A stretch of DNA of 12,996 nt from an archaeon. GTDB taxonomy: Archaea > EX4484-52 > WAPT01. Made by a program: the position numbers and the translations under genes. Shown piece by piece: positions 1-12,996 of this stretch. Within the stretch, counting starts at the first letter, position 1; each line of letters starts with the position of its first letter. Location: NCBI GenBank assembly GCA_029258795.1, contig JAPDKB010000011.1, positions 1 through 12,996 on the forward strand, written 5' to 3'. The notes under the pieces were generated by a model, which saw only the letters and a list, made by a program, of their open reading frames with translations, did not search any database and was not told the origin of the DNA.

Positions 1-54
1 ATGGTTGGTAAGGTTGGTTTTGAGTCGGCAGGATTTTTGACTGTGCGGGGATAG
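1..54 (+). other. Short open frame at window edge, unidentified
   Basis: An ATG at the first base opens 17 codons and ends at TAG 52-54. The peptide begins MVGKVGFES and matches no protein I can name. The first 60 bases are about 47 % G+C, clearly richer than the operon that follows. It may be the end of an upstream gene, a decayed fragment or chance; the window edge prevents a decision. Confidence 0.15.
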
Positions 55-68
55 AAAAGGTTAAAAAA
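55..68 (+). promoter_or_regulatory. Possible archaeal BRE/TATA element ahead of the six-gene operon
   Basis: A purine-rich stretch (GAAAAGG, 54-60) is followed directly by TTAAAAAA (61-68). Its centre lies about 24 bases before the ATG at 89, the distance expected if transcription starts at or just before that codon (leaderless). It is the best candidate start for the operon transcript, since no other gene precedes 240. The match is loose in such A+T-rich DNA. Confidence 0.35.
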
Positions 69-88
69 GTTTGCTGGGTTTAATTTGT

Positions 89-196
89 ATGCCTAAAAGG
101 TTGGGTGAAGAGCACATTCAGTTTATAGTTGAAAGGTTAAAACAAGGAAAACCTTTGCCGGAAGAATTTAAATGGTTGTTGTTTGGAGGTAGGTAA
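89..196 (+). CDS. 35-residue leader or truncated methyltransferase N-terminus
   Basis: ATG at 89, TAA at 194-196. The peptide starts MPKRLGEEHIQ and ends in a PLPEEFKWLLFGGR segment. It is charged, helix-prone and protein-like rather than low-complexity. From memory this style of N-terminus (a helix followed by a PLPEEF.xLLF element) resembles the opening of archaeal adenine-specific DNA methyltransferases, but I could not verify that. It stops abruptly, in a different reading frame from the methyltransferase that follows. A GGAGGT sits at 185-190 inside its end but is about 50 bases from the ATG at 240. Best readings are the stump of an older methyltransferase gene whose body was replaced, or a small leader protein. 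Confidence 0.35.
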   Translation: MPKRLGEEHIQFIVERLKQGKPLPEEFKWLLFGGR

Positions 197-239
197 GGTA
201 AGAAACTTTACAGTTTTGAGAATAAGAAAAAGGTATAAA

Positions 240-3200
240 ATGATGATAAATAGAACTCGCTTAAAGGTAGAATTAAGTAATCTTCTGCCTAAAATTAGAA
301 CACCCGAGCATATTTTTAATTTATTTCACTTGTTAAATTATCCTAAAGATTGTTTTTTTGATACAAGTTATAAAAGAAAACCAGAAAAGTTCGATCTCAA
401 AGTTGGGGAAAAAAAGAAAATAAAAAATATTTATACTATTTTAAAATTCCAAGAAAACTTAACAGTTTTTCTAGTTGAGGTTAAAACACTCTCCTCTGTG
501 CTAGTAAGATATCTAGCAAAGTTTTTTTCTGATAATTATGATTCTGTTTTATTAGTAATAACGAAAGATTATCATAATATTTTATTTGTTTTACCTGATT
601 ACGAGAGAGGACAAAAGGGAAAACCTAGACTAAAAATTACGAAATTGTATGTTGAAAGAGGAGAGCCGTACTATACTGCCCTAGAAATCTTATCTAATAT
701 AGCCTATGAGGGTGAATCAGATTGGAGGAAAATAAAAAGAAAATGGCAGGAAGCATTTAATGTAGAGAGAGTAACAGAAAAATTCTTTGAAGATTATAAA
801 ACTATTTTCTTTAAGATTAGAAATTATCTTCTCAAGCAAAAGATAGGTAGAAAAGAGGCTCACCAATTTACTTTACAGTTACTTAACAGAATTATGTTTG
901 TTTACTTTGTGGCAAAAAAAAGATGGCTAAATAATGATACGAGATTCATGAGATTTTTCTGGCAAAGATATTTAGTTGAAAGAACTAAAGGAAATGTAAA
1001 GAAAGATAGTTTCTATGATATTTGGCTTAAGCAATTATTTTTTAAAGCATTTAATAACAGACAATCGGAGATTACAGATTTACCAAAGGATATAAAGGAA
1101 ATGTTCTATGATTTCCCTTATCTTAATGGTGGTTTATTTGCAGAAAATGAATTAGATAAATTAAATGTCAAACTAACTGACGATCTTTTCAAAGAAATTT
1201 TTTTATTTTTTGAGAAGTACAATTTTACGATAAAAGAAGACATGCCTTTAGAAAGGGAGGTTGCTGTTGATCCAAAGATGATCGGTTATGTTTATGAATC
1301 TCTTGCTAATGTAGCTGAGGAAATTTATGATAGGAACGATTTGGGTATTTTTTACACTCCTACTATTGAGGTCTATTTTATGTGTAGGAGATCCTTAGTA
1401 GAATATTTGTCAAACCATCTTCCTGAAATACCAAAAGAAAAAATTTACGAATTTGTATTTGATGAGGATAAAGAAAAAGTAGAGAAATATTTTGATAAAA
1501 TAAATGCTTGGAGAAGGATAAAAGATGTATTAGACAATCTTTCTGTTGTTGACCCTGCATGTGGTTCTGGCGCGTTTTTAGTAGGAATGATGAATGTTCT
1601 GTATGAATTATATAAAATTGTTTTTAAACATTTGGGGAGGAAATGGAATGCTTTTGATTTGAAAAGTTCGATAATAAGCAGATCACTTTATGGGGTAGAT
1701 GTGATGCCTTGGGCAATTCGTGCTGCTGAATTGAGATTATGGTTACAATTAATAATAGAAACAGAATTTAGCAAAGAAGATCTAAAGAAAAGACCTTTAT
1801 TGCCAAATCTAAATCTTAATCTTAGAATTGGAGATTCTTTAGTTCAGGAGATAGGAGGAATGATGATTAGTTTGAAAAGTCCAGATATTTCTGAAAGGTT
1901 AAAGAAAAAACTCTACTGGCTGAAAAAAGAAAAGGAGAAGTATTTCTTTAATATCTCAAGTGAATTTATTAGTAGAAAAGATATACTGAAAGAGGAAGTA
2001 AAGCTTTTTGAGGAAATTATAGAAGAAAGAAAAAGAAAACTTTTGAAAAAGAGACAATTACTCGAAGAGATATCCAAAAATAAAAAAGCTTCACAAAAAT
2101 CCTTATTTAAAACGGTATCAAAATATGATAAGATTTCTTTTGGCGAGATAGAAAAACGAAATATAAAACAATTATTGGGAAAAATCCCTTCAAGTTTAAG
2201 CGAATTTAATAAGTTAATTCAAACACAGATTGAGAGGATTGATAAAGAAATAGGTGAACTAGAAAAAATAAAAGAAAACCTAGAAGATCCTGAAAAGAAA
2301 CCTTTTATTTGGGAAATTGATTTTGCCGAAATTTTTGGAGATAAAGGTGGGTTTGATATTGTTATTGGGAATCCTCCCTATGTAAGGCAGGAAAAGATTT
2401 CTCCACCTAATAAGACAAAAGCTGAGGTAACTTTAGAAGATAAAAGAGAGTATAAAGAAAAGTTGATAAAATCTGTAAAGAACAGATTTCCTATAATCGA
2501 AAAAATAGATAAGAAGAGTGATTATTACATTTACTTCTATTTCCATGGCTTGAGTTTGTTGAATGAGAAGGGTGTATTTTGTTTCATAACTTCAAATTCT
2601 TGGCTGGACGTAGAATTTGGTAAAGATTTACAAGAATTTCTCCTAAAATATGTTCCAATAGTTGCTATCTATGATAATCCAAAAAGAAGTTTCGAGCATG
2701 CAGATATAAACACGATAATTGCTCTATTTGGTGCTCCTAAAATTGAAGAAAAATTGATAGAAGATCTAAAAATAGAAACTAATAACTGGTCAATGTTAAA
2801 CCATATTGCTAAATTTGTAATGTTTAAAAAACCATTTGAGGAGGTTTTAACTTCCGAGAACTTAATTAAAATTGATGAAATCGATATTAAAGTTAAACAT
2901 AAAGAACTGATGGACTTGGTCGATAATGTGCTTAATACCGAAGATTTCAGAGTTTTTCCGATTTTGCAGGGGGATTTACTTAAAGATGGATGGGAATATC
3001 CAGAAAATTACGACAAAAATAAAGGAAGATTTAAAGCTGGGCAATATGTAGGGAATAAATGGGGTGGGAAGTTCTTAAGAGCTCCAGAAATCTTTTACAC
3101 AATTTTGAAGAAGGGAAAGGGGAAATTGGTTAGATTGGGAGATCTTACTAAAGTTAGAAGAGGATTTACGACAGGTGTGAACGATTTCTTTTATTTACCA

Positions 3201-4022
3201 AGTAAATATTTCGATATTAAGGAAGAAGGAAATTATTACAAATTAATTCCTAAGCAAGATGGATTACCAAAGGATATTAAGATAGAAAAAGAATTTCTAA
3301 AACCTGTTATAAAATCTCCAAGAGAATGCAAAACGATCATAATAAAGCCAGAAGATTTGAAACACAAGGTTTTCATTTGTAACAAATCAAAAAAAGAATT
3401 GAAAGGAACGGGAGCTTTGAAATACATTGAATGGGGAGAGAAGATGAAGTTTAATAAAGTACCGACTGTGGAGGGGAGAAAATATTGGTGGAGTTTAGGT
3501 GAAAGAAAAATAAGTGATGCATTATGCATGATGAGTTATAATGATCGTCATATCTTTTGGAAAAATGGAAAGTTTTTAGTAGATGCCAGATTTTATGATA
3601 TTTATGCAAAAAAAGAATATTCCAAAAATCTAATATTCTCTTTAAATTCAACTATAACTTTCTTAAGTGTAGAATTAAATGGAAGAATAAACCTTGGTGA
3701 AGGTGCTCTTGATTTTAAAGTTTATGAAGCTAAAAATATTATGATTTTTTCTCCTATAGCAATCTCAATTAAAAACATGAATAAAGGATTGCTGACTCGT
3801 GAAATCCGCTCAATCTTCGAAGAACTCGGTTTCGATCCTTCCAGACCGATTCGTGGGCAAGAGCCGAATCCTCTACCAGACAGAGCCGAGCTTGACAATA
3901 TTATTTTTGACGAACTCGGTTTAACCGAAGAGGAGAGGAAAGAGGTTTATTGGGCTGTTGCCGAGTTGGTGAAACAAAGGTTGGAAAAGGCGAGAAGTTT
4001 GAAGAAAAAAGGAGGGGTGTGA
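240..4022 (+). CDS. Eco57I/type IIG-like adenine-specific DNA methyltransferase, probably with N-terminal nuclease-like domain
   Basis: 1260 residues, expected to transfer a methyl group from S-adenosylmethionine to adenine N6 in DNA. Motif I DPACGSGAF lies at residues 438-446 and catalytic motif IV NPPYV at 711-715, the order of gamma-class N6 adenine methyltransferases. About 150 lysine/glutamate-rich, coiled-coil-like residues (roughly 555-700) separate them. Near the N-terminus LVEVKT holds an E-x-K pair (E80, K82), consistent with a PD-(D/E)XK fold, possibly cleaving; the partner aspartate is not certain. Around 963-990 LGDLTKVRRGFTTGVNDFFY resembles the start of a type IIG target-recognition domain. 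The last 80 residues are encoded by G+C-richer DNA. I chose ATG 240 because AAGG lies 7 bases upstream; an in-frame TTG at 183 would add 19 poorly conserved-looking residues. It is the first gene of the operon, 3 bases from the next. It is either a stand-alone restriction-modification enzyme or the modification arm of the whole cluster. Confidence 0.85.
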   Translation: MMINRTRLKVELSNLLPKIRTPEHIFNLFHLLNYPKDCFFDTSYKRKPEKFDLKVGEKKKIKNIYTILKFQENLTVFLVEVKTLSSVLVRYLAKFFSDNYDSVLLVITKDYHNILFVLPDYERGQKGKPRLKITKLYVERGEPYYTALEILSNIAYEGESDWRKIKRKWQEAFNVERVTEKFFEDYKTIFFKIRNYLLKQKIGRKEAHQFTLQLLNRIMFVYFVAKKRWLNNDTRFMRFFWQRYLVERTKGNVKKDSFYDIWLKQLFFKAFNNRQSEITDLPKDIKEMFYDFPYLNGGLFAENELDKLNVKLTDDLFKEIFLFFEKYNFTIKEDMPLEREVAVDPKMIGYVYESLANVAEEIYDRNDLGIFYTPTIEVYFMCRRSLVEYLSNHLPEIPKEKIYEFVFDEDKEKVEKYFDKINAWRRIKDVLDNLSVVDPACGSGAFLVGMMNVLYELYKIVFKHLGRKWNAFDLKSSIISRSLYGVDVMPWAIRAAELRLWLQLIIETEFSKEDLKKRPLLPNLNLNLRIGDSLVQEIGGMMISLKSPDISERLKKKLYWLKKEKEKYFFNISSEFISRKDILKEEVKLFEEIIEERKRKLLKKRQLLEEISKNKKASQKSLFKTVSKYDKISFGEIEKRNIKQLLGKIPSSLSEFNKLIQTQIERIDKEIGELEKIKENLEDPEKKPFIWEIDFAEIFGDKGGFDIVIGNPPYVRQEKISPPNKTKAEVTLEDKREYKEKLIKSVKNRFPIIEKIDKKSDYYIYFYFHGLSLLNEKGVFCFITSNSWLDVEFGKDLQEFLLKYVPIVAIYDNPKRSFEHADINTIIALFGAPKIEEKLIEDLKIETNNWSMLNHIAKFVMFKKPFEEVLTSENLIKIDEIDIKVKHKELMDLVDNVLNTEDFRVFPILQGDLLKDGWEYPENYDKNKGRFKAGQYVGNKWGGKFLRAPEIFYTILKKGKGKLVRLGDLTKVRRGFTTGVNDFFYLPSKYFDIKEEGNYYKLIPKQDGLPKDIKIEKEFLKPVIKSPRECKTIIIKPEDLKHKVFICNKSKKELKGTGALKYIEWGEKMKFNKVPTVEGRKYWWSLGERKISDALCMMSYNDRHIFWKNGKFLVDARFYDIYAKKEYSKNLIFSLNSTITFLSVELNGRINLGEGALDFKVYEAKNIMIFSPIAISIKNMNKGLLTREIRSIFEELGFDPSRPIRGQEPNPLPDRAELDNIIFDELGLTEEERKEVYWAVAELVKQRLEKARSLKKKGGV
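4011..4019 (+). promoter_or_regulatory. Ribosome binding site for the TcmP-like gene
   Basis: GGAGGGGTG overlaps the end of the methyltransferase gene, six bases before the ATG at 4026. It contains the GGAGG core, the clearest Shine-Dalgarno match in the window, and fixes the start of the next gene. It also suggests coupled translation. Confidence 0.7.
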
Positions 4023-4025
4023 AAA

Positions 4026-4907
4026 ATGATAGTAAAACCTCATACAAGCCTAAAACATAGGATTTTAGGAGTATATTTTAAAATATGCAGAGAAGTGGCT
4101 AAAAGGAGGGATTTATACTATGTAGACCTCTTTGCTGGCGATGGAGAAGCAAAATGTGAAGAGACACCAATAAAAAAATGGGATTCTCCTCTAATACATT
4201 CATTATTGAAAAATGCTGAAAAAGAGAATCTAAAACTACACTGTTTTTTAAATGAATTAGATAGAACAAGATATGAGAAATTAAAAGAAAAAGTATCATC
4301 CTATAATAAATATGTAGAAGATATAGAAAATGAAGATGCAAACAAAATATACAAAAAATTTTTGGAGAACATACCAAAAAATCAATGGTCTATTTGGTTC
4401 TTAGATCCCAGCAAACACTCAGATTTAAAATGGACTACCATAGAAGGAATTGCTAATCACAAGGGATGGGACAATATAAGTAGAGTAGAGAGAAAACCAG
4501 AATTAATTATAAATTTTATGACTTATACAATGCAACGAAGTATAAGGAGAAATGATGAAAGTATTACAGAAGCATTAGGAACGGATGTATGGAAAGAAAA
4601 AATAGAAAAAAATCCTAAAACTCCTGTATATGAAATATTTTTAAAGCTGTTTTTAGATCAACTCGAAAGATTAGGATATAACTGTACTTGGTTTTCAATA
4701 GAACAAACTCCCCCTCAGAGAACGCATCTTTATTATCTAATATTTGCAAATAATATCCCTTCCGCAATAAAAATAATAGCTGAAAAATTTGCTCCTTGGA
4801 TTAAAAGGACTATTAGAGATAAGTGGACAAAAGAAAATTTCAAATGGAGAATGATGACAAAAGCTAAAAAGCAAAGATATAAATTATTATGTGAATATGG
4901 GGGATAA
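4026..4907 (+). CDS. tcmP: Divergent three-Cys-motif partner protein (TcmP-like), methyltransferase-like fold
   Basis: 293 residues. The layout follows the TcmP family (named for genes found beside three-cysteine-motif phage Gp37/Gp68-type proteins). An N-terminal KHRILGVYF helix is followed by YYVDLFAGDG (D34-G40), which resembles motif I of S-adenosylmethionine-dependent methyltransferases, then a D-S-P-L segment and an N-E-L-D strand end. The position where relatives carry DPFG reads DPSKH here (D127-H131), so the second active-site-like loop has diverged. A conserved-looking INFMTYTMQRS and a late YYLIF segment follow. There is no zinc ribbon and no radical-SAM part, unlike the next gene. 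The family's biochemical activity is not known to me; SAM binding is inferred from the motif. It ends one base before the next gene's ATG, so the two paralogues are probably made together and may pair. Confidence 0.7.
   Translation: MIVKPHTSLKHRILGVYFKICREVAKRRDLYYVDLFAGDGEAKCEETPIKKWDSPLIHSLLKNAEKENLKLHCFLNELDRTRYEKLKEKVSSYNKYVEDIENEDANKIYKKFLENIPKNQWSIWFLDPSKHSDLKWTTIEGIANHKGWDNISRVERKPELIINFMTYTMQRSIRRNDESITEALGTDVWKEKIEKNPKTPVYEIFLKLFLDQLERLGYNCTWFSIEQTPPQRTHLYYLIFANNIPSAIKIIAEKFAPWIKRTIRDKWTKENFKWRMMTKAKKQRYKLLCEYGG
4899..4905 (+). promoter_or_regulatory. Ribosome binding site deciding the TcmP-radical SAM start
   Basis: GGGGGAT lies 3 bases before ATG 4909, resembling the GGAGGTGAT core complementary to the 16S rRNA 3' end. 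Earlier in-frame starts exist (GTG 4891, ATG 4897), but they overlap the upstream gene and have no comparable site. ATG 4909 follows the upstream TAA (4905-4907) by one base. Confidence 0.5.
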
Positions 4908-4908
4908 A

Positions 4909-6903
4909 ATGGATTTGAAATGTCCTATTTGTGGATCTGAAATGAAAATAGACAGAAAATCAAAATTAGCCGAATGTATAAATTGCGGATTGATTGCTTG
5001 GTATTATGAAGAGCAAACAAAAATGAAGCATAAAGTATTCGAAGATTATTTTGATAAATGGGTTAAAATTCTCGGTAAGTACTATAAACTAAATTATGTT
5101 GATGGTTTTGCTGGAGCAGGTTTATACTATGATAGAAATGGTAACTTCCATTATGGTTCTCCGATCTTAGCTGCAAATATAATAAGAAAAAATAAGAAAA
5201 AAGCCAACTTAGTTTTAATAGATAAAAATGAGAAAATTCTTAGTAATTTAAAAAAAATTATTGATTTTATAGAATTAGATAAATCATCGAATTTGAAAAT
5301 ATTTATTATTTCTAAAGATTTCAATTCAACTATCAATGAAATACTAAAAACTACAAATGGTAACTTGGCACCCACATTTGTTTTTGTGGATCCGTTCGGA
5401 TTTAACGATGTAAAATATGAGACTTTGAAGAATATTATGGAAAAGGTGCCAAAGCCAGAAATATTAATAAACTTTATGTTTAATGCTATTACAAGATTTC
5501 TAGGGATTAGAAATCTTTCTAAAAGTTTTAAAGAAGTATTTGGGTTAAAAAATTGGAGAGAAGCACTTGAAAAAATTCAAGGCACTCGCGAAGATAAGGT
5601 ATTACAACTTTATATTTCTCAACTTAAAAAAATCTCAAAATTCGTTTTTCCTTATAGATTAACTTTCCCTCGTAAAAGAAGGACATATTACTATCTTATC
5701 CATCTTACTAACTACTTAAAAGGAGCTTCTATTATGAAATCTAGTTTTGCGAAATATTCATATGGGAGGGTTGAATGGCTTGGAACTTATGGAGGACAAA
5801 TGAAATTAACAGAAATAGGTACTGTAAAGCTCAGCGAAATAAAGGGCTATTTACTCAAAAAATATGATAAGAAAAAAATTACTTTTAAACAAATAATTGA
5901 AGAAAATATAGATACGACATCATATCTTGAAAGCGATTTTAGAAAAGTAATTAAAAAATTAGAAAAGGAGGGCATTGTGTATGTAGAAAGATTTCCGAAA
6001 ATTGGTAAAAATGGTAAACCTCGGGCTGGCTTAGATCTCAATGATGTCATTTATTTCAATACATTCCCAAGCATCAAAAGAAAAACACTTCTTTACAGAA
6101 CAAAAGTAGAGTATGGAAATTTTACAATAAATCACATTTTAGGATGTTCACATGGATGTAAATATCCATGTTATGCATGTATGCTTGCAATTAGATATGG
6201 AAAGGTTAAAGATTATGAAGATTGGATACATCCAAGAATTGTGTCAAATGCTTTAGAATTATTGGATAAGGAAATACCCAAATATAAAAAGGAGATCGAT
6301 TTTGTTCATCTATCATTTACAACAGATCCTTTTATGTACGATCCTGTAAATAAAAGAGTATACCCACAGATAAAAGAATTGACATTAAAAATTATTGAAA
6401 AATTAAATAAAAATGGAATAAAAGTGACTGTATTAACAAAAGGTATATTCCCTAAAGAGCTTGTAAATTTTGATAAATTCAGCAAAGAGAACGAGTATGG
6501 TATTACATTAGTTTCCTTAAATGAAGATTTTAAAAAGAAATTTGAGCCTTATTCTGCTCCTTTCGAGGAGAGAATATCTTCTTTAAAATTCCTTCATGAA
6601 AATGGGCTTAAGACATGGGTAAGTATCGAACCTTATCCTACACCAAATCTTGATCCAGGAGCATATAATATTGAAAGGCTTTTGAATACAATCAAATTTG
6701 TTGATAAAATAATTTTTGGTAAATTAAACTATAATGTGAAATCAAATAAATTTGAAAATAATGAAGAATATTATAGGGAATGTGCAAAAAAGGTAATCGC
6801 TTTTTGTAAAAAATATGGAATTAAATATCATATAAAAGAAGGCACACCTTATAGCAATAATAAAACTAAAACTATCTTTAAGAATGACAAAAAACTCTTC
6901 TAA
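4909..6903 (+). CDS. Fusion protein: zinc ribbon + TcmP + winged helix + radical SAM-like domain
   Basis: 664 residues from ATG 4909. Order: a zinc ribbon with C5, C8, C23 and C26; a canonical TcmP domain with KHKVFEDYFDKW, then VDGFAGAG (D65-G71), a GSPILA segment and FVDPFG (D161-G164); a lysine-rich stretch around 300-375 that looks like a winged helix; then from about residue 395 a radical-SAM-like domain. The last opens with GCSHGCKYPCYAC, giving C413, C417, C421 and C424, followed by FVHLSFTTDPFMYD, KVTVLTKG and KTWVSIEPYP. These resemble the spore photoproduct lyase/COG1533 branch of radical SAM proteins. Such domains bind a 4Fe-4S cluster and cleave S-adenosylmethionine to start radical chemistry; the substrate here is unknown. 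TcmP proteins are usually separate genes beside three-cysteine proteins, so this fusion argues for a physical partnership. It overlaps the next gene by 20 bases. Confidence 0.75.
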   Translation: MDLKCPICGSEMKIDRKSKLAECINCGLIAWYYEEQTKMKHKVFEDYFDKWVKILGKYYKLNYVDGFAGAGLYYDRNGNFHYGSPILAANIIRKNKKKANLVLIDKNEKILSNLKKIIDFIELDKSSNLKIFIISKDFNSTINEILKTTNGNLAPTFVFVDPFGFNDVKYETLKNIMEKVPKPEILINFMFNAITRFLGIRNLSKSFKEVFGLKNWREALEKIQGTREDKVLQLYISQLKKISKFVFPYRLTFPRKRRTYYYLIHLTNYLKGASIMKSSFAKYSYGRVEWLGTYGGQMKLTEIGTVKLSEIKGYLLKKYDKKKITFKQIIEENIDTTSYLESDFRKVIKKLEKEGIVYVERFPKIGKNGKPRAGLDLNDVIYFNTFPSIKRKTLLYRTKVEYGNFTINHILGCSHGCKYPCYACMLAIRYGKVKDYEDWIHPRIVSNALELLDKEIPKYKKEIDFVHLSFTTDPFMYDPVNKRVYPQIKELTLKIIEKLNKNGIKVTVLTKGIFPKELVNFDKFSKENEYGITLVSLNEDFKKKFEPYSAPFEERISSLKFLHENGLKTWVSIEPYPTPNLDPGAYNIERLLNTIKFVDKIIFGKLNYNVKSNKFENNEEYYRECAKKVIAFCKKYGIKYHIKEGTPYSNNKTKTIFKNDKKLF

Positions 6904-7717
6904 AAAAGTGGATAACATAAGTAAATCTGTAATTAAAAAAATAAAAAAAGAAGTTGAAAAAAGCGGGCATCCTGTTAGTTTGAAAACTTCAATTATTTTA
7001 AATAAGAAAGGTTGGTATGTGAGAAATGCGCCCAGATACTTTGATTCAAATTTAAAAATTTCTCGTGAAATAGATATTGTTGCACAAAAGAAATCTATTT
7101 ATGTAAAAGATGCTATTGATGTATTAATTATTGAATGCAAAAAATCTAAAGGTAAGCCTTGGGTCTTTTTTAGACAAAATAAATTTAATGCTGATGTACT
7201 ATCACTTAATGTAGATATGGCAGAAACGACTGAAGGTGCAATTTATGATTGGTTAGGGAAGCATATATTCAAAAAACATTATTATTACAAAAGACCTTGC
7301 CATACCTACTACTTTGTAGCTAACGCAAATCCAGCTAGTAAGGCAGGTAAGCAAATTTTTGATGCAACAGAGCAAGTCCTAAGTGCCTTAAGATTTTATT
7401 TGGTACAAAGATTTAATTTATTTTCAGAATATAGACTAAAGCCAAAAATTCCCACGTTTTTTTATCCAATAATTGTTTTTGATGGGAAGATGTTTGAAGT
7501 ATCGGTTGAAGAAGCGGATATAAATATAAAAGAAACAGATTGGATTTCTCTGTGGATAGAAAAAGAACTTAAAGAACCGTTACTTATGAAATTCTTATAC
7601 AGACAAGGTTTTCGCAGAGTAGTATACTCAAAACCAATTGTAATCGATATTGTAAAACTCGATTACTTTGAAGAATTTTTAAAAAATTTTGATAAGTTAA
7701 GTAGTGATCAAAAATGA
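6884..7717 (+). CDS. PD-(D/E)XK nuclease-like protein, unnamed family
   Basis: 277 residues. The nuclease call rests on one block: REIDIVA with D64, then IIECKKSKGKPW with E84 and K86, i.e. D-x19-E-C-K, the metal-binding and catalytic layout of PD-(D/E)XK nucleases. The N-terminus is lysine-rich and helical, fitting DNA contact. A second half (about 190-235) holds PIIVFDGKMFEV and a DWISLWI segment, seen in my recollection in other restriction-type nucleases of archaeal and bacterial defence loci. No signal peptide or membrane segment is visible. ATG 6884 overlaps the previous gene by 20 bases and has no clear ribosome site; GTG 6908, after the upstream stop, is an alternative. The stop overlaps the next ATG by four bases (ATGA). 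It is probably a cleavage subunit working with the helicase that follows; inactive relatives also exist, so activity is inferred. Confidence 0.65.
   Translation: MTKNSSKKVDNISKSVIKKIKKEVEKSGHPVSLKTSIILNKKGWYVRNAPRYFDSNLKISREIDIVAQKKSIYVKDAIDVLIIECKKSKGKPWVFFRQNKFNADVLSLNVDMAETTEGAIYDWLGKHIFKKHYYYKRPCHTYYFVANANPASKAGKQIFDATEQVLSALRFYLVQRFNLFSEYRLKPKIPTFFYPIIVFDGKMFEVSVEEADINIKETDWISLWIEKELKEPLLMKFLYRQGFRRVVYSKPIVIDIVKLDYFEEFLKNFDKLSSDQK
7704..7709 (+). promoter_or_regulatory. Ribosome binding site for the PLD-helicase gene
   Basis: GTGATC lies four bases before ATG 7714 and is complementary to the GAUCAC part of the 16S rRNA 3' tail. Together with the ATGA overlap it supports ATG 7714 as the start. 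Confidence 0.5.
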
Positions 7718-10700
7718 CAATTCCACCACAGATAATAGACAACGAAAGAATAAAGCTTTTGGATTTTATAGTTGGTATTCTCAAAGACAGTCCTAATACC
7801 AATCTAGATATCGCTACAGCTTTCTTCAACATCAAAGCTTTTGAAATGATAAAGGATTATGTTAAAGGTATCAAGAGGTTCAGGCTTCTTTTGGGAAAGG
7901 CACCAGAAATTAAAAGTGATAAAACATTAGGTGAGGAGTTACTAAGGATTATTAAAGAAGAGGTTGAAGGTTTGGAATTATCAAAAGAAAATGAGGATAA
8001 TGTAAAAACTTTTATTGAATTTTTGAAAAAATCGAATGTTGAAGTAAGAATCTATGACAAACAATTTTTGCATGGAAAAGCATTCATATTCGATAAGGCA
8101 GTTATTATCGGCTCCTCAAATTTCACTCCTGCTGGCTTAACTCACAATACAGAATTAAATTCAGTACATTTAGAAGCCCAAGCAGAATACGTAAGAAAAA
8201 ATTGGTTTGAGAAATTCTGGCAGGAAGCAAGAGATTTTAAAGAAGAATTAATTGAACTCTTAGAAGCTTCAAGATTTGGAAGTAAAGAATATACTCCTTA
8301 TGAGGTATTTATTAAAGTTCTTTATGAATTGCAAAAAGAAGATATACTTGAACAAGAAAAGATGGAAGAAAGAGAAGGTGCTATTTCTTCCAAAGTTGAG
8401 TTATCAGAGTTTCAGGAAGATGCTGTAATAAGAGTGAAATCAAGATTAAAGAAGTATGGTGGGGTAATAATCGCTGATTCTGTTGGTTTGGGTAAAACAT
8501 GGATAGCAAAGAAAATAATAGAAGAATTTGGTTTTTATGAAAGAAAAAATTTCCTTGTGATATGCCCTCCACAATTAAGAAAAATGTGGAGTGATGAGAT
8601 CAAAAGCATAATGTTACCAGCAAATGTAATGTCTTTAGAAGAGCTTGCATCTGAAAAATTTCTAGAGAAGGCAAACGAGATTACTTCAGGTCATTTAGAA
8701 GATGTCGAATTAGTAATTGTAGATGAAAGTCATAATTTAAGAAATCCTTTGTCAAATAGATGGGAAAATTTCTATAATTTAGTTTGGGAACATATAGCAA
8801 AAAAAGGAAAAAGACCCTATCTTATATTTTTAACCGCTACACCTATTAATAACACAATTTGGGATCTGTATTGGCAAATAATGCTAATAGTCGGAATGGA
8901 TAGAACAGCCTTCATTAAAGAAGGGATCTCAGACTTATTTAAATTCTTCAAAGAAGTTGATAAGAGAGGAGATGCAACTTTACTGAATGATCTCTTAAAC
9001 GAAATATCAATAAGGAGAACAAGAGAGTATATAAAAAAGAATTATCCTAATGCGACTATAAAAGGTAAAAAAATAACATTTCCAGAAAGAATTCTTGAGA
9101 ATATAGAGTACAAATTGGGAGAAACCTATAGAGGGATGTATAAGAAAATAGCAAAAACAATAGCTGAAGACCTTACAATGGCGTGTTATCAATTACTGAA
9201 ATACAAAAAAGTTGAGAAGCTCAGTAAAGAAGAAGAATGGGAATTAAATGGGATGATTGCATTGTCTGGAATTTTAAAAACCATTTTTTTAAAAAGATTA
9301 GAAAGTAGTGTAGAAGCTTTTAGAATAAGTGTTAGGACACATATTCATTTTCTTCAAAAACTTAAGGAGTATATGAAGAAAGGAAAACTTCTAACAAAAT
9401 CAACTTTCAATAAGTACATTATGTGTTTGGATGAAGAGATAGAGAAATTTGAGGATAGATTAGAAAAGTTTAATCCAAATGAATATAACATAGATGAATT
9501 GTTTTCAGATATAGACAAGGACATAAAAATTTTAAAAGAAATTTTAAAGTCCGTTGAAGAAATAACACCAGAGAAAGACGCTAAGCTCAACGTAGTAAAG
9601 AAAAAACTATTAGAATTATCAAAAAAAGGTCAAATAATACTGTTTACTTATTATGAGGATACTCTAAATTATATTTGGAATCAGCTACAAAACTCCAAAG
9701 AATTTAAGAAACTAAAAATAGAAAAAATATCTGGTTCTACTTCAACACGCGAGAGAATAAGAATAGAAAAGGACTTATTAGCGAAAAAGATTGATATTTT
9801 GTTAAGTACAGATGTACTCTCGGAAGGAACGAACTTGCAATCGGCACGAATTATAGTTAACTATGACTTACACTGGAATCCTACGCGCATGCTACAAAGA
9901 GCAGGAAGAATAGACAGGATAGGTTCTCCTTATAAGAAAATTTTTGTTTTTAATGTGTTCCCAGAAGATGAGCTTGAAAGTTTGCTAAAGTTAGTGCAGA
10001 TCCTTCAAACTAAAATTACAAAGATAGATGAGGCTATAGGTTTAGATCAGAAAATTCTGGGAGAAGAGATTCATCCTAAAGTATTTGGTATAATTAGAAA
10101 GATAAGAATGTGCGATACAAAAATTTTAGATGAGTTAGATGAGATGGCTTTTGGAGGTGGAGAAAAATTCTATCAGCCAATAAAAGATTTCATGAAAAGG
10201 CGTGGGTTGGAGGAGTTGAAAAGAATTGAAAAAATTCCTTACGGGATACACAGCGGTCTTAAAAAAGGTATAAGAGGTATTTTCTTTTATTATAAATACT
10301 CTGATTTGTTTCATTTTTGGTATTTATATGATATTGAAAATAAAAAATTTATTACAAATAAATCGGAGATAATAGATTTTATTTCATGCTCGCCAAATGA
10401 AAAAAGAGTAATTCCAGAATTCTCCCAAAAAGTATATGAAATAAATGCTCGAGTGATCCAAAAAATAGAAGAAAATTATAAAGAATTCGAACAAGAACAA
10501 AAAGTGGATACCGAATTAGTAAGAATAGTTAAAGATAAAAGTTCGAGATTTATAAGGGATGTGATAAAAGAAGTTGAAATTTGTATCGATGAACATCTTA
10601 TAGAACATCCAGATGATCAAGATGTAATCTCTTTATGGGATAATGCAAGAAATAAATTGTTAACAATCTCTTTAACAAAAAAAAGATTACAAATTTTAAG

Positions 10701-10857
10701 AAAGATATGGAAAAAGTATAAAAAAACTGGTGATTGGAAACAACTAATAAGAGAAATTTGGAATTTTGTTAAGCAATTGAGTTCTAGGAAAAGAACAGAA
10801 ATTCCACAGTTTGAAAAGAATAAACTAAAGCTTGTTGCAATAGATTTCATTTCCTAA
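7714..10857 (+). CDS. Phospholipase D (HKD) nuclease fused to SNF2-type helicase/translocase
   Basis: 1047 residues. The N-terminal PLD-type nuclease domain carries one HKD motif, HGKAFIFD (H120, K122, D127), followed by IIGSSNFTPAG. A single HKD implies that two protomers form the active site, as in PLD-family restriction enzymes such as BfiI. Helicase lobe 1 has Walker A DSVGLGKT (255-262), motif II DESH (337-340) and motif III TATP (374-377). Lobe 2 has STDVLSEGTNLQ (from 698) and QRAGRIDRIG (728-737), typical of SNF2/superfamily 2 translocases. About 300 further residues are charged and helical, with no motif I recognise. It should bind DNA, move along it using ATP and deliver the nuclease. 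In class 1 DISARM the SNF2 helicase (DrmD) and PLD protein (DrmC) are separate; here they are one chain. It starts within the preceding stop, and its own stop overlaps the next ATG by one base. Confidence 0.85.
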   Translation: MTIPPQIIDNERIKLLDFIVGILKDSPNTNLDIATAFFNIKAFEMIKDYVKGIKRFRLLLGKAPEIKSDKTLGEELLRIIKEEVEGLELSKENEDNVKTFIEFLKKSNVEVRIYDKQFLHGKAFIFDKAVIIGSSNFTPAGLTHNTELNSVHLEAQAEYVRKNWFEKFWQEARDFKEELIELLEASRFGSKEYTPYEVFIKVLYELQKEDILEQEKMEEREGAISSKVELSEFQEDAVIRVKSRLKKYGGVIIADSVGLGKTWIAKKIIEEFGFYERKNFLVICPPQLRKMWSDEIKSIMLPANVMSLEELASEKFLEKANEITSGHLEDVELVIVDESHNLRNPLSNRWENFYNLVWEHIAKKGKRPYLIFLTATPINNTIWDLYWQIMLIVGMDRTAFIKEGISDLFKFFKEVDKRGDATLLNDLLNEISIRRTREYIKKNYPNATIKGKKITFPERILENIEYKLGETYRGMYKKIAKTIAEDLTMACYQLLKYKKVEKLSKEEEWELNGMIALSGILKTIFLKRLESSVEAFRISVRTHIHFLQKLKEYMKKGKLLTKSTFNKYIMCLDEEIEKFEDRLEKFNPNEYNIDELFSDIDKDIKILKEILKSVEEITPEKDAKLNVVKKKLLELSKKGQIILFTYYEDTLNYIWNQLQNSKEFKKLKIEKISGSTSTRERIRIEKDLLAKKIDILLSTDVLSEGTNLQSARIIVNYDLHWNPTRMLQRAGRIDRIGSPYKKIFVFNVFPEDELESLLKLVQILQTKITKIDEAIGLDQKILGEEIHPKVFGIIRKIRMCDTKILDELDEMAFGGGEKFYQPIKDFMKRRGLEELKRIEKIPYGIHSGLKKGIRGIFFYYKYSDLFHFWYLYDIENKKFITNKSEIIDFISCSPNEKRVIPEFSQKVYEINARVIQKIEENYKEFEQEQKVDTELVRIVKDKSSRFIRDVIKEVEICIDEHLIEHPDDQDVISLWDNARNKLLTISLTKKRLQILRKIWKKYKKTGDWKQLIREIWNFVKQLSSRKRTEIPQFEKNKLKLVAIDFIS

Positions 10858-11525
10858 TGAATTCCTACTTCTTAGGGTTTATTGGGGTATCTCTTCAACT
10901 TATTCTTATTTTGTCTATTAAAAGTTATTTACATCTTGAACGAGAAAAGCCGAATTTAAAAGATCAGTTTATTTGGACTATTGTTGGTCTTATTGGAACT
11001 TTATTTTTATTTTTCTTATTAAAAGTTTTTTTGCCTATAGATGAAAATAAGTCTAGTCTTTATAATGCTATATTTTTTATATTAGGGGTAACACCTCTTT
11101 TGGAAGAGTTTTTATATAGAAGAGTAATACTTCAACATTTCTTAAATTTAAAGGAGCAATCTTTTTCAATAAAGGAATTATTAGCATTAATATGGATGAG
11201 TATATCTTTAATTATTCCACCTACTTTTTTAGGACAATATACTTTAAAACATATTCTTTACACTTTTGTTGCTTTTTTACTTCCTTTCTGTTATTTTTCG
11301 TTTAAAAAATCAGAAAGGAAGAAACCTTTTATAAATTGTTTATCAAATCTTATTTTTTTAATTTCGCAGGATGTTTTGTTTGTTCTAGGACATGGAAGTT
11401 CCGCATCCATGTCTCTATTTTTTACAGGATTTTTATACGGTTTTCTTTATTTAGAGAGCAAAACAATTATACCCTCATTGATTGCACACTATTTCTATAA
11501 TTTTCTCATTTTTATTTATTCTTAA
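10857..11525 (+). CDS. CPBP-family intramembrane metalloprotease
   Basis: 222 residues, mostly hydrophobic, with about six to eight membrane segments, one of which starts immediately at the N-terminus. All three CPBP (Abi/CAAX protease and bacteriocin-processing) signatures are present: EEFLYRR with E83, E84 and R88; FVLGH with F175 and H179 (FxxxH); and HYFYN with H211 and N215 (HxxxN). The family comprises glutamate-type or metal-dependent intramembrane proteases that cut substrates within the membrane; some serve in bacteriocin immunity and others in prenyl-protein maturation. Its ATG overlaps the helicase stop (TAATG) and has no ribosome site of its own, so it is translationally coupled and presumably belongs to the system. 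Its substrate is unknown; a role as membrane effector or accessory is inference from position alone. Confidence 0.75.
   Translation: MNSYFLGFIGVSLQLILILSIKSYLHLEREKPNLKDQFIWTIVGLIGTLFLFFLLKVFLPIDENKSSLYNAIFFILGVTPLLEEFLYRRVILQHFLNLKEQSFSIKELLALIWMSISLIIPPTFLGQYTLKHILYTFVAFLLPFCYFSFKKSERKKPFINCLSNLIFLISQDVLFVLGHGSSASMSLFFTGFLYGFLYLESKTIIPSLIAHYFYNFLIFIYS
11501..11523 (+). terminator. Possible T-rich archaeal terminator at operon end
   Basis: Eighteen of these 23 bases are T (runs TTTT and TTTTTATTTATT), ending at the CPBP stop. Archaeal RNA polymerase can terminate at T-rich tracts without a hairpin. The same bases encode Phe, Ile and Tyr in a membrane segment, so the bias may be purely coding. 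Confidence 0.2.
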
Positions 11526-11541
11526 CTTACTTAGCTTCTAA

Positions 11542-11712
11542 AATTTTGGCAAATTCTATTTACAAGAACAAAAAATCACCAAACTATTAGAAAACTTTTC
11601 GTATTCGTCTGAAACGGTTAATAGATCCGCAATAAGGGCATACGAGATATTTTGGAAGTATATGAAAATCTTCTCTAAAGGAAAGTTTATAAAGTTTTAT
11701 TTACTAAAGTAA
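11542..11712 (+). pseudogene. Decayed reading frame, unidentified
   Basis: This frame stays open for 56 codons between a stop at 11539-11541 and TAA 11710-11712, with no ATG near its beginning. It reads like real protein: QEQKITKLLENFSYS, then a tryptophan- and aromatic-rich RAYEIFWKYMK. It lies in the 387-base stretch between the CPBP gene and the GH5 gene that otherwise has no intact gene. It may be the remnant of a transposase or of a small helical protein, but I cannot assign a family. Confidence 0.3.
11679..11694 (+). promoter_or_regulatory. TATA-like element with upstream purine box
   Basis: AGGAAAG (11679-11685) precedes TTTATAAAG (11686-11694), a good match to the archaeal BRE plus TATA layout. 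Transcription would start near 11716-11719, where an ATG opens only a seven-residue peptide. If used, it may drive a non-coding RNA or be left over from a decayed gene. Confidence 0.35.
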
Positions 11713-11718
11713 ATAAAA
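11695..11718 (+). repeat. 24-base inverted repeat (11-base arms, 2-base centre)
   Basis: The arms TTTTATTTACT (11695-11705) and AGTAAATAAAA (11708-11718) are perfect reverse complements around AA. The palindrome begins at the base after the TATA-like element and runs up to the predicted transcription start, the classic position of an archaeal repressor operator. As RNA it would form a weak A/U hairpin, so a terminator is also possible. Confidence 0.6.
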
Positions 11719-11822
11719 ATGGAAATGTTGGATGGTCTTTAGTTTGTTTGCTGTTCTGTTGGTTCTGATGTGTTAGATGACATGCATTATAGACTTTATA
11801 CTACAACACTTCATTAAGCAAA

Positions 11823-11840
11823 GTTGAAAAATTCTTCAAC
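11823..11840 (+). repeat. Short inverted repeat GTTGAA-N6-TTCAAC
   Basis: Six-base perfect arms (11823-11828 and 11835-11840) flank a six-base centre. The heptamer CAAAGTT occurs at 11819-11825 and again at 11842-11848. The site lies about 40 bases upstream of the TATA box of the GH5 gene, so it could be a regulator site; it is short enough to be chance. Confidence 0.25.
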
Positions 11841-11851
11841 ACAAAGTTTAA

Positions 11852-11908
11852 CTTGCCGAGTCAGTGATGCAGTAAGAGAATTATATAAAAAGGATGAACG
11901 TATTTAAT
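11852..11908 (+). pseudogene. Short coding-like remnant upstream of GH5 gene
   Basis: One frame reads CRVSDAVRELYKKDERI before a TAA at 11906-11908. Another frame just upstream reads SKVEKFFNTKFNLPSQ. The two would join through a one-base frameshift near 11857. The LPSQ...AVRELYKK pattern faintly recalls the N-terminal part of TnpB-type proteins, but the stretch is too short to claim this. Confidence 0.2.
11876..11891 (+). promoter_or_regulatory. Leaderless archaeal promoter (BRE/TATA) of the GH5 gene
   Basis: AGAGAA (11876-11880 and adjacent) is followed by TTATATAAAA (11881-11890). The TATA centre is about 27 bases before ATG 11913, so transcription should start at or within a base or two of the start codon. 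There is no Shine-Dalgarno site before that ATG. This is the clearest archaeal signal in the window and makes the GH5 gene a separate transcription unit. Confidence 0.6.
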
Positions 11909-11912
11909 ATAT

Positions 11913-12860
11913 ATGACAAATAATAAGGTTGAGTATAGTTTTGTAAATCATAAAATAATGCTTAAAGGTGTTTCTATAGCAGACCCTCTTAAGCTTGTGA
12001 AAGATGATAAAATTGATATTAGGAGAAAATTACGGTTTATAAAAAAATATCATTTAAATACTATTCGAGTGCCAATTCTTCCAGGATTTTGGAGAGCTTA
12101 CCCAGATTTCTATTTTACATATTTAGAACAATTAGCAGATGCGTGTAAAAAAGAGGAAATGTTCTTAATTATAGATTGGCATGCCATAGGTAATCCTGTA
12201 AAAGGAGAAACTAGGATGGTAAACAAATACCTTTGTATAAAAAGAAAGAAGTTCTTACTTTATGACGCAAATATGGATATAGCTATAAAATTTTGGACAT
12301 CTATCTCTAATATTTTTCAATACGAGGATTATGTGATCTTTGAAATATTTAATGAACCTTGTCCAGATAGTAAACCTATTCCAAAATTAGGCTTATCTCC
12401 TTTATATTGGAAAGACTGGAAATCAAAGGCAGAAAAAATAATCAACATTATTAGGAGAAAAACATATAATTTTATATTAATTGGTACAATTAATTGGTGT
12501 AATAATATAGAGAAAGTTGTGGAAAACCCTATAAACGAGGAGAACATAGCTTATGTTCTTCACCCTTATCCAGGACATGAGGGTTGGATGAAAAATATAA
12601 AGCTAGCTATTAAAAATAATCTTCCTATATTTATAACCGAATGGGGATTTAAAGAAAATACTTCTTCTAAAATATTTAGAGGTAAGAAAGAAAGTTATGC
12701 TCTTCCCTTGTTAAACCTTTTAGAAAAAAATAAGATTAGTTGGATAGCATGGTGTTATGATACTGTGTGGGGACCTGCACTTCTTAATTCTTGGAGAAAG
12801 GATGATTACACAAAGTGGGGACAATTTCTTTTTAATTGGTTAAATAAGCATAAAAAATAG
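11913..12860 (+). CDS. Glycoside hydrolase family 5 (cellulase-like) enzyme
   Basis: 315 residues, about the size of one GH5 (beta/alpha)8 barrel. Landmarks come in family order: MLKGVSIADP at strand 1, NTIRVPILPGFW with the conserved arginine, IIDWHA (H90), FEIFNEP with acid/base E148 in N147-E148-P149, VLHPYPGHEGW (H217, Y219), FITEWGF with nucleophile E243, and a late WIAWCYDTVWGP with the substrate-stacking tryptophan. It should hydrolyse beta-1,4 or related glucan or mannan links by the retaining mechanism; the exact substrate cannot be read from sequence. There is no signal peptide, membrane segment or carbohydrate-binding module, so it is probably cytoplasmic or exported by an unrecognised route. 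It has its own leaderless promoter and is probably unrelated to the upstream operon. Confidence 0.85.
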   Translation: MTNNKVEYSFVNHKIMLKGVSIADPLKLVKDDKIDIRRKLRFIKKYHLNTIRVPILPGFWRAYPDFYFTYLEQLADACKKEEMFLIIDWHAIGNPVKGETRMVNKYLCIKRKKFLLYDANMDIAIKFWTSISNIFQYEDYVIFEIFNEPCPDSKPIPKLGLSPLYWKDWKSKAEKIINIIRRKTYNFILIGTINWCNNIEKVVENPINEENIAYVLHPYPGHEGWMKNIKLAIKNNLPIFITEWGFKENTSSKIFRGKKESYALPLLNLLEKNKISWIAWCYDTVWGPALLNSWRKDDYTKWGQFLFNWLNKHKK

Positions 12861-12874
12861 AAAATAAGCTATGA

Positions 12875-12988
12875 CACGCACATTATTTGGCATTCACCAT
12901 TGACTATGTTTGGGAGACAGCCAGAGGAAAAGCAGAGCACTTCTATGCCTGTGTTTGTTGTCATTATTTTGCCTTTATCCTTGCATAG
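12875..12988 (+). pseudogene. Coding-like fragment at window end, unidentified
   Basis: A 37-codon frame runs from just after TGA 12872-12874 to TAG 12986-12988. It contains FTIDYVWETARGKAEHFYA and a CVCCHYFAF end, rich in aromatic residues and clearly protein-like, yet it has no start codon. An ATG at 12871 in a neighbouring frame reads MTRTLFGIHH and stops where this frame becomes convincing, suggesting a frameshift. The local G+C is higher than in the GH5 gene. A broken transposase is the likeliest explanation, but I cannot name the family. Confidence 0.3.
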
Positions 12989-12996
12989 TTGCCATA

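Follow-up and report, generated by a model that had tools for sequence, protein, structure and literature searches.

The window analysed here, an entire contig of 12,996 bases (JAPDKB010000011.1, positions 1 to 12,996 of the forward strand) from the archaeal assembly GCA_029258795.1 (GTDB lineage EX4484-52; WAPT01), carries six open reading frames in one tight set, all on the + strand. A gene for an adenine-specific DNA methylase and one for a phospholipase D (PLD) nuclease fused to an SNF2 helicase, both with intact motifs, enclose two TcmP genes and a putative nuclease gene. The second TcmP protein is fused to a radical S-adenosylmethionine (SAM) domain, and a gene for a CPBP membrane protease closes the set. 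We favour reading this set as a defence operon based on methylation, in which a nucleic-acid modification module is nested, and place about even confidence in that reading. Its features are:

240..4022, + strand, adenine-specific DNA methylase, type IIG/PglX-like, 1260 amino acids (Pfam Eco57I, PADLOC)
4026..4907, + strand, TcmP1, RlmJ-like methyltransferase-fold protein, 293 amino acids (TIGR04474; motifs DxFAGDG and DPSK)
4891..6903, + strand, TcmP2-radical SAM fusion, 670 amino acids (TIGR04474, Radical_SAM, GMT-wHTH, AlphaFold)
6145..6171, + strand, codons of the Cx3Cx3C cluster motif, C-S-H-G-C-K-Y-P-C, fusion residues 419-427 (alignment)
6884..7717, + strand, putative PD-(D/E)XK nuclease, 277 amino acids (motif R-E-I-D64 ... 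E84-C-K86 only)
7714..10857, + strand, PLD-SNF2 helicase, 1047 amino acids (Pfam PLDc_2, SNF2, Helicase_C; PADLOC)
10857..11525, + strand, CPBP/Rce1-like membrane protease, 222 amino acids, EEFLYR motif (Pfam Rce1-like, 4.6e-8)

The methylase frame opens with TTG at 183 and has an ATG at 240. A gap of 3 bases follows this gene, and the next four junctions are overlaps of 17, 20, 4 and 1 bases. The first-pass annotation, made from the letters of the sequence without database searches, had described a six-gene operon, and these junctions and the shared strand bear it out; Pfam and NCBIfam likewise upheld its identification of the methylase, the two TcmP proteins, the radical SAM domain, the PLD-SNF2 protein and the CPBP protease. 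As the window is the whole contig, genes beyond its ends are out of view.

Both TcmP domains are members of TIGR04474, with scores of 113 bits (1.8e-32) for TcmP1 and 182 bits (2.5e-53) for TcmP2 against a curated cut-off of 53 bits, and both match the PADLOC candidate models PDC-M30A / PDC-M41A. What sets them apart from the family is that TcmP is doubled here, with one copy fused to a radical SAM domain and both lying between methylase and nuclease genes. The fusion protein begins with a CPxC..CxxC ribbon, followed by TcmP (residues ~37-300), a winged helix-turn-helix (~311-363; GMT-wHTH, 4e-6) and a radical SAM part resembling spore photoproduct lyase (SPL) (~395-650; Pfam Radical_SAM, 1.7e-9, 38.5 bits versus a cut-off of 29.5). 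In its AlphaFold model (mean pLDDT 93.4, pTM 0.91), the TcmP part is nearest to RlmJ, the 23S ribosomal RNA (rRNA) methylase that forms N6-methyladenine (m6A) at position 2030 (m6A2030; Z 17.6, 214 residues, 3.0 A, 13% identity), the next matches being 2oo3 (DUF519; Z 17.1) and Trm1 (Z 15.0). Five residues, K46, D71, G77, D167 and P168, are invariant in an alignment that includes TcmP1, which holds all of them. RlmJ has parallel residues in K18 and in D164 of its DPPY motif (PMC3814359), and from order and fold we infer that K46 and D167 of TcmP correspond to them. By its modelled fold, TcmP is an RlmJ (m6A)-type methyltransferase that keeps the apparent catalytic lysine of the N-terminal helix and the Asp-Pro of motif IV, and methyl transfer is its likely activity. 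It differs from RlmJ in genetic context and at motif IV itself, where TcmP2 has DPFG and TcmP1 DPSK, as opposed to the catalytic DPPY of RlmJ.

The C-terminal part of the fusion model is nearest to SPL (Z 19.1, 251 residues, 4.0 A, 14% identity), the next different radical SAM enzyme following at Z 15.4. However, instead of the canonical Cx3Cx2C of SPL, a six-row alignment of the radical SAM domain conserves GCxHGCxYPCYA, which gives Cx3Cx3C, and neither SPL equivalog model (TIGR04070 / TIGR03886) matched the window protein at E 0.01. Queries of PDB sequences with the fusion and with profiles for radical SAM and TcmP gave weak matches only, among them SPL (E 0.87), HI0767-type methylases (E 0.014), 2oo3 (E 0.046) and RlmJ (E 0.34). 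By its fold, the partner of TcmP is an SPL-like radical SAM enzyme with an altered cluster motif.

Proteins of this kind are widely distributed. A scan of genome contigs with the single fusion protein gave no relatives, and the six-row radical SAM alignment was used instead; with it, 460 places in 84,980 species genomes were found to encode relatives, in archaea, candidate-phyla bacteria, Omnitrophota, Nitrospirota, Clostridia and other hosts, and 31 viral contigs carry them too. The analysis covered the best 80 of the 460 genome matches (loci are designated by L numbers, genomes by G numbers). TcmP lies in one operon with a radical SAM protein of this kind in 99 of 114 loci, and the Cx3Cx3C spacing itself is present in 112 of them. 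At least five other loci (L036, L038, L039, L040, L053) encode fusions of the two, and none of these fusions was seen adjoining a PLD-SNF2 gene, many of the contigs being short. Because nine of 11 further archaeal TcmP loci hold a neighbouring three-Cys protein of the SPL-, PA0069- or DUF5131-like kind, TcmP pairs with several branches of the radical SAM group; SPL-like proteins with the canonical CxxxCxxC are also among its partners. One archaeal operon (L030, 325-5274) combines such a canonical SPL-like protein and TcmP with a DUF499/HmaC gene. In the searched literature, for which coverage of subscription journals was mostly lacking, no function study of TcmP-radical SAM was found. The first-pass annotation had called the set a candidate undescribed system, and this holds insofar as TcmP-radical SAM is in no named, tested system; TcmP, on the other hand, is not wholly uncatalogued, since NCBI lists it (function unknown) and the PADLOC candidate models match it.

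The genes accompanying the TcmP-radical SAM pair are often those of restriction-modification (RM) systems. Among the genes that share an operon with it are those for an Eco57I-type methylase (L036, L082, L103, L104, L110), for SNF2 together with a type ISP methylase (L089), and for Mod and Res of type III (L093), while a type III-like Mod, Res and a HEPN-SNF2 protein stand beside the pair in L035, which has relatives in gut phages, some with two TcmP genes (L119, L127, L128, L130). HindIII-type nucleases (L123, L137) and GmrSD (L121) are found beside it as well. In L036, a methylase 46% identical to that of the window directly precedes a TcmP-radical SAM fusion, after which the contig ends. 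This shows a methylase-fusion linkage independent of the window, and any PLD-SNF2 gene that followed would lie beyond the contig edge; the same genome holds other PLD-SNF2 genes, one of them at a contig edge.

These associations were also counted. Pfam families were tallied in 117 operonic proteins and in 117 distant ones of the same loci: N6_N4_Mtase was found 11 times versus 2 (Fisher 0.009) and N6_Mtase 8 times versus 2 (Fisher 0.05); combined, methylases number 19 versus 4 (p 8e-4), though the counts may overlap and relatedness among the viral loci limits their independence. The families Eco57I, ResIII, GmrSD, HindIII and YhcG are listed solely among the operonic proteins. A scan with our own seeds gave 23 methylases in 1.22 Mb near the pair versus 2 in 0.79 Mb of background, and 8 helicases versus 0, a Poisson enrichment that is weaker than the Pfam tallies because its seeds came from surveyed loci, which were then excluded. 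All 13 helicase-bearing loci hold a methylase too. The first-pass annotation had proposed testing for recurrence across distant lineages, and such recurrence was observed for the linkage between TcmP-radical SAM and genes for methylases, SNF2/Res helicases and restriction nucleases. We read the pair as a portable module acting on nucleic acids, which is frequently, though not in every case, associated with RM-type systems.

Several of these loci deserve description in their own right. L035 (3080-12895, MT836112.1) is an unannotated human-gut element with an integrase, TcmP, radical SAM, type III-like Mod, Res and a HEPN_Swt1-SNF2 fusion. On the viral contig of L121 (8871-14628), TcmP-radical SAM is followed directly by a Pfam-confirmed GmrSD-DUF4357 type IV gene, and the viral contig of L129 has a set with the same gene sizes; this GmrSD-DUF4357 protein may cut DNA with foreign modifications. 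The idea that the pair replaces a methylase beside HindIII-type nucleases was dropped, as L123 and L137 do carry NPPY-bearing reading frames, on the other strand.

The two genes that enclose the module form a unit of their own. The methylase (Pfam Eco57I, 1e-26; PADLOC REase_MTase_IIG, 1.2e-52) has an intact motif I (DPACGSGAF at 438) and NPPY (at 711), and is 56% identical over 1258 amino acids to the methylase of the archaeal locus L167 and 46% identical over 946 to that of L036. PADLOC type IIG profiles match it, yet its N-terminal VEVK is not conserved in relatives; a nuclease in the N-terminus was therefore rejected, and none is claimed within the chain. The PLD-SNF2 protein, 57% identical to that of L167 across its length, retains the PLD HxK (at 120, kept in all homologues checked), Walker A DSVGLGKT (at 255), DESH (at 337) and motif VI (at 728), and matches the PADLOC models C3a139 HKD+Snf2 (1.4e-54) and DrmD. 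When it was used as a query against 394 same-domain genomes, 20 genomes gave matches and 15 neighbourhoods were examined. A clear relative of the window methylase lies near PLD-SNF2 in eight of them (L167, L169, L170, L172, L174-L177) and a weak one in two more (L178, L180); a methylase adjoins PLD-SNF2 also in L256 and L258. TcmP or a radical SAM protein of the window's kind was found in none of the 15.

In L167 (genome G349), an M78 metallopeptidase and a DUF4411 protein stand between methylase and PLD-SNF2, in place of TcmP, radical SAM and nuclease. AbiEi- and AbiEii-like genes precede PLD-SNF2 in L174 and L175, and a Fic-like gene precedes the methylase in L169, all read from sequence. 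Since archaeal relatives usually hold other genes between or beside the two backbone genes, we regard the window as a two-gene backbone with exchangeable cargo. Methylase plus PLD-SNF2 is a recurrent archaeal two-gene unit with exchangeable embedded cargo, which elsewhere is toxin-antitoxin-like and in the window consists of TcmP1, the TcmP2-radical SAM fusion and the putative PD-(D/E)XK nuclease. The pairing of a helix-turn-helix M78 peptidase with DUF4411, found at L167 (9473-11117, between methylase and PLD-SNF2) and at L168 (9782-11436, beside a PLD-SNF2 fragment), is likely a toxin-antitoxin cargo of this backbone. A Methanophagales locus (L256, 2333-11998) encodes PLD-SNF2, an apparent cytosine-C5 methylase, an HhH-GPD-like protein and an adenine methylase; judged by sequence, these perhaps represent a further type of cargo. 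The CPBP gene is the last of the operon, and its membership is doubtful; no CPBP relative was found in the L167 neighbourhood. Some 390 bases past the operon, a glycosyl hydrolase family 5 (cellulase) gene (11913-12860) lies on the same strand and is apparently unrelated.

The first-pass annotation had assigned the gene at 6884-7717 to the PD-(D/E)XK nucleases, and a motif of its protein, E-I-D-x(19)-E-x-K, is invariant with two distant archaeal relatives (L009 and L010). However, no family matched the gene in Pfam, NCBIfam or PADLOC, a PDB sequence search gave no match, and the structure model, built from a 3-row alignment, is unusable (pLDDT 33). In 12 genomes with RM-linked TcmP-radical SAM, a search run without a positive control detected no relatives of the gene. 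With neither a family match nor a modelled structure, the nuclease stays putative.

The six genes show affinities to several known defence systems. The set is of the defence type and related to parts of class 1 DISARM without DrmA/DrmB, as the first-pass annotation had recognized. In common with class 1 DISARM (drmD, drmMI, drmA, drmB, drmC), it has a DrmD-kind SNF2 helicase, an adenine methylase similar to DrmMI and a PLD nuclease, the last being fused to the helicase in the window. In contrast to DISARM, DrmA and DrmB were not found in the operon, and NCBIfam DISARM scores are all far under cut-off. Type I ARMADA, described in a preprint that does not mention radical SAM (PMC12458937), resembles the window in that a BrxHII/RapA-like helicase stands beside a PglX-like methylase, in archaea among others, but its defining YprA helicase (MZB module) is absent from the genome of the window. 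Because the YprA/DrmB hallmark domain PF09369 (MZB/DUF1998) is absent from that whole genome, which is 96.3% complete (eight genomes served as positive controls), the set is neither DISARM nor ARMADA. Among the six genes there is no PglZ phosphatase or BrxC ATPase of BREX, and within the window there are no 7-deazaguanine insertion genes of Dpd. Hma (helicase-methylase-ATPase) systems also have a helicase and a methylase with embedded genes, and a TcmP and SPL-like pair stands beside a DUF499/HmaC gene in G240; however, the window has no DUF499/HmaC ATPase.

For the defence operon that we favour, the following mechanism may be envisaged. The type IIG/PglX-like methylase, judging from its family, would methylate adenines of host DNA at N6 as a mark. 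Incoming DNA that lacks this mark would be cut or blocked by the PLD-SNF2 protein translocating along it, as in DISARM-, ARMADA- and BREX-like systems but without a YprA helicase. TcmP and the radical SAM enzyme would act in sequence on a nucleobase, TcmP positioning or methylating it and the radical SAM enzyme adding a radical-based change. Self nucleic acid would thereby be protected, through either a further mark or a repair, and the putative nuclease would act where this mark or repair is missing. The role that we favour for the pair is to place a second mark on DNA or to carry out a step of self-protection there. A bolder proposal is that TcmP and the Cx3Cx3C radical SAM protein make up an undescribed, widely shared nucleic-acid hypermodification machine, which plugs into many restriction systems as a second self-mark and is nested here in a new YprA-free system of methylase and PLD-SNF2; this we put forward tentatively, as well short of probable. 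Radical-SAM chemistry would in that case serve to tell self from non-self DNA by marking.

A number of observations weigh against the favoured reading. The first-pass annotation had asked whether the gene order recurs, and the exact six-gene set was found one time. A methylase lies within 8 kb of the pair in 27 of 114 loci and in none of the remaining 87, many on short contigs; since no methylase is seen near most copies of the pair, its function need not depend on an RM system. Catalysis by TcmP is unproven, because DPF or DPS stands where RlmJ has DPPY, and as RlmJ acts on rRNA, RNA is as possible a substrate for TcmP as DNA. The motif is the one piece of evidence for the nuclease, and the CPBP protease has no place in the proposed mechanism. 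Finally, the G+C content of the contig is 29.7%, versus 39-46% in five stretches elsewhere in the genome, which leaves both host and mobility uncertain. The contig may be a foreign or acquired island or may be mis-binned; its ends are not repeated within the genome, so that no mobile-element border was found.

The least improbable of the rival explanations, though we still think it unlikely, is that the methylase and PLD-SNF2 backbone has by chance received, as insertions that do not work with it, independent genes of a defence island, namely the nuclease and the TcmP-radical SAM pair. Unrelated cargo occupies the same place in relatives of the backbone, most pairs stand without an RM system, and the PADLOC models PDC-M30/M41, which suppose complete systems, match TcmP alone. 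Against such independence, all six genes overlap or nearly do so, the pair is enriched beside methylases, and L036 keeps a related methylase directly before the fusion. A chance or technical origin of the arrangement, by binning error or adjacency in a fragmented metagenome-assembled genome, is very improbable: the deviating G+C content and the lack of the operon genes in both same-genus genomes would fit it, but the operon is continuous with overlapping genes, both of its halves recur elsewhere, and binning affects the name of the host alone.

The remaining rivals concern the substrate and the purpose of the pair. It may modify or repair transfer RNA or rRNA, either shielding it from RNA-cutting effectors or marking self RNA. 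The resemblance of TcmP to an rRNA methylase speaks for this, as do the HEPN-SNF2 proteins and toxin-antitoxin-like cargo of comparable loci. However, the RlmJ active site resembles those of DNA m6A methylases (PMC3814359), the radical SAM partner resembles the DNA enzyme SPL, and the genes around the pair encode methylases and restriction enzymes that act on DNA. We consider an RNA role somewhat more doubtful than that of a mere passenger. Doubtful to a greater degree is a pure repair function, in which an SPL-like enzyme and a base-flipping methylase-fold partner would reverse lesions caused by the nearby nucleases or by base modifications of phage or host, with no marking involved. That the radical SAM domain is closest in fold to SPL agrees with repair, as does the pairing of canonical SPL-like proteins with TcmP. 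Against it, the window protein has no SPL equivalog match and the altered motif is conserved, and the linkage to methylases is better suited to modification.

TcmP and its three-Cys partners, for which no function is known, are encoded by hundreds of genomes and also by phages. The fold evidence gives them a concrete, testable role, in which an RlmJ-like methylase and an SPL-like radical enzyme, both users of SAM, would act on nucleic acid, and their genomic neighbourhoods tie the pair to restriction systems of types IIG, ISP, II, III and IV. Its presence beside so many of them points to an unstudied route by which immunity marks or mends DNA or RNA. Should the pair make a mark, DNA self-recognition would gain radical-SAM chemistry in addition to methylation, phosphorothioation and 7-deazaguanine; should it act in repair or on RNA, immunity would have a new support function. 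The methylase and PLD-SNF2 backbone, with its exchangeable cargo, is a place in which to seek further defence genes of archaea.

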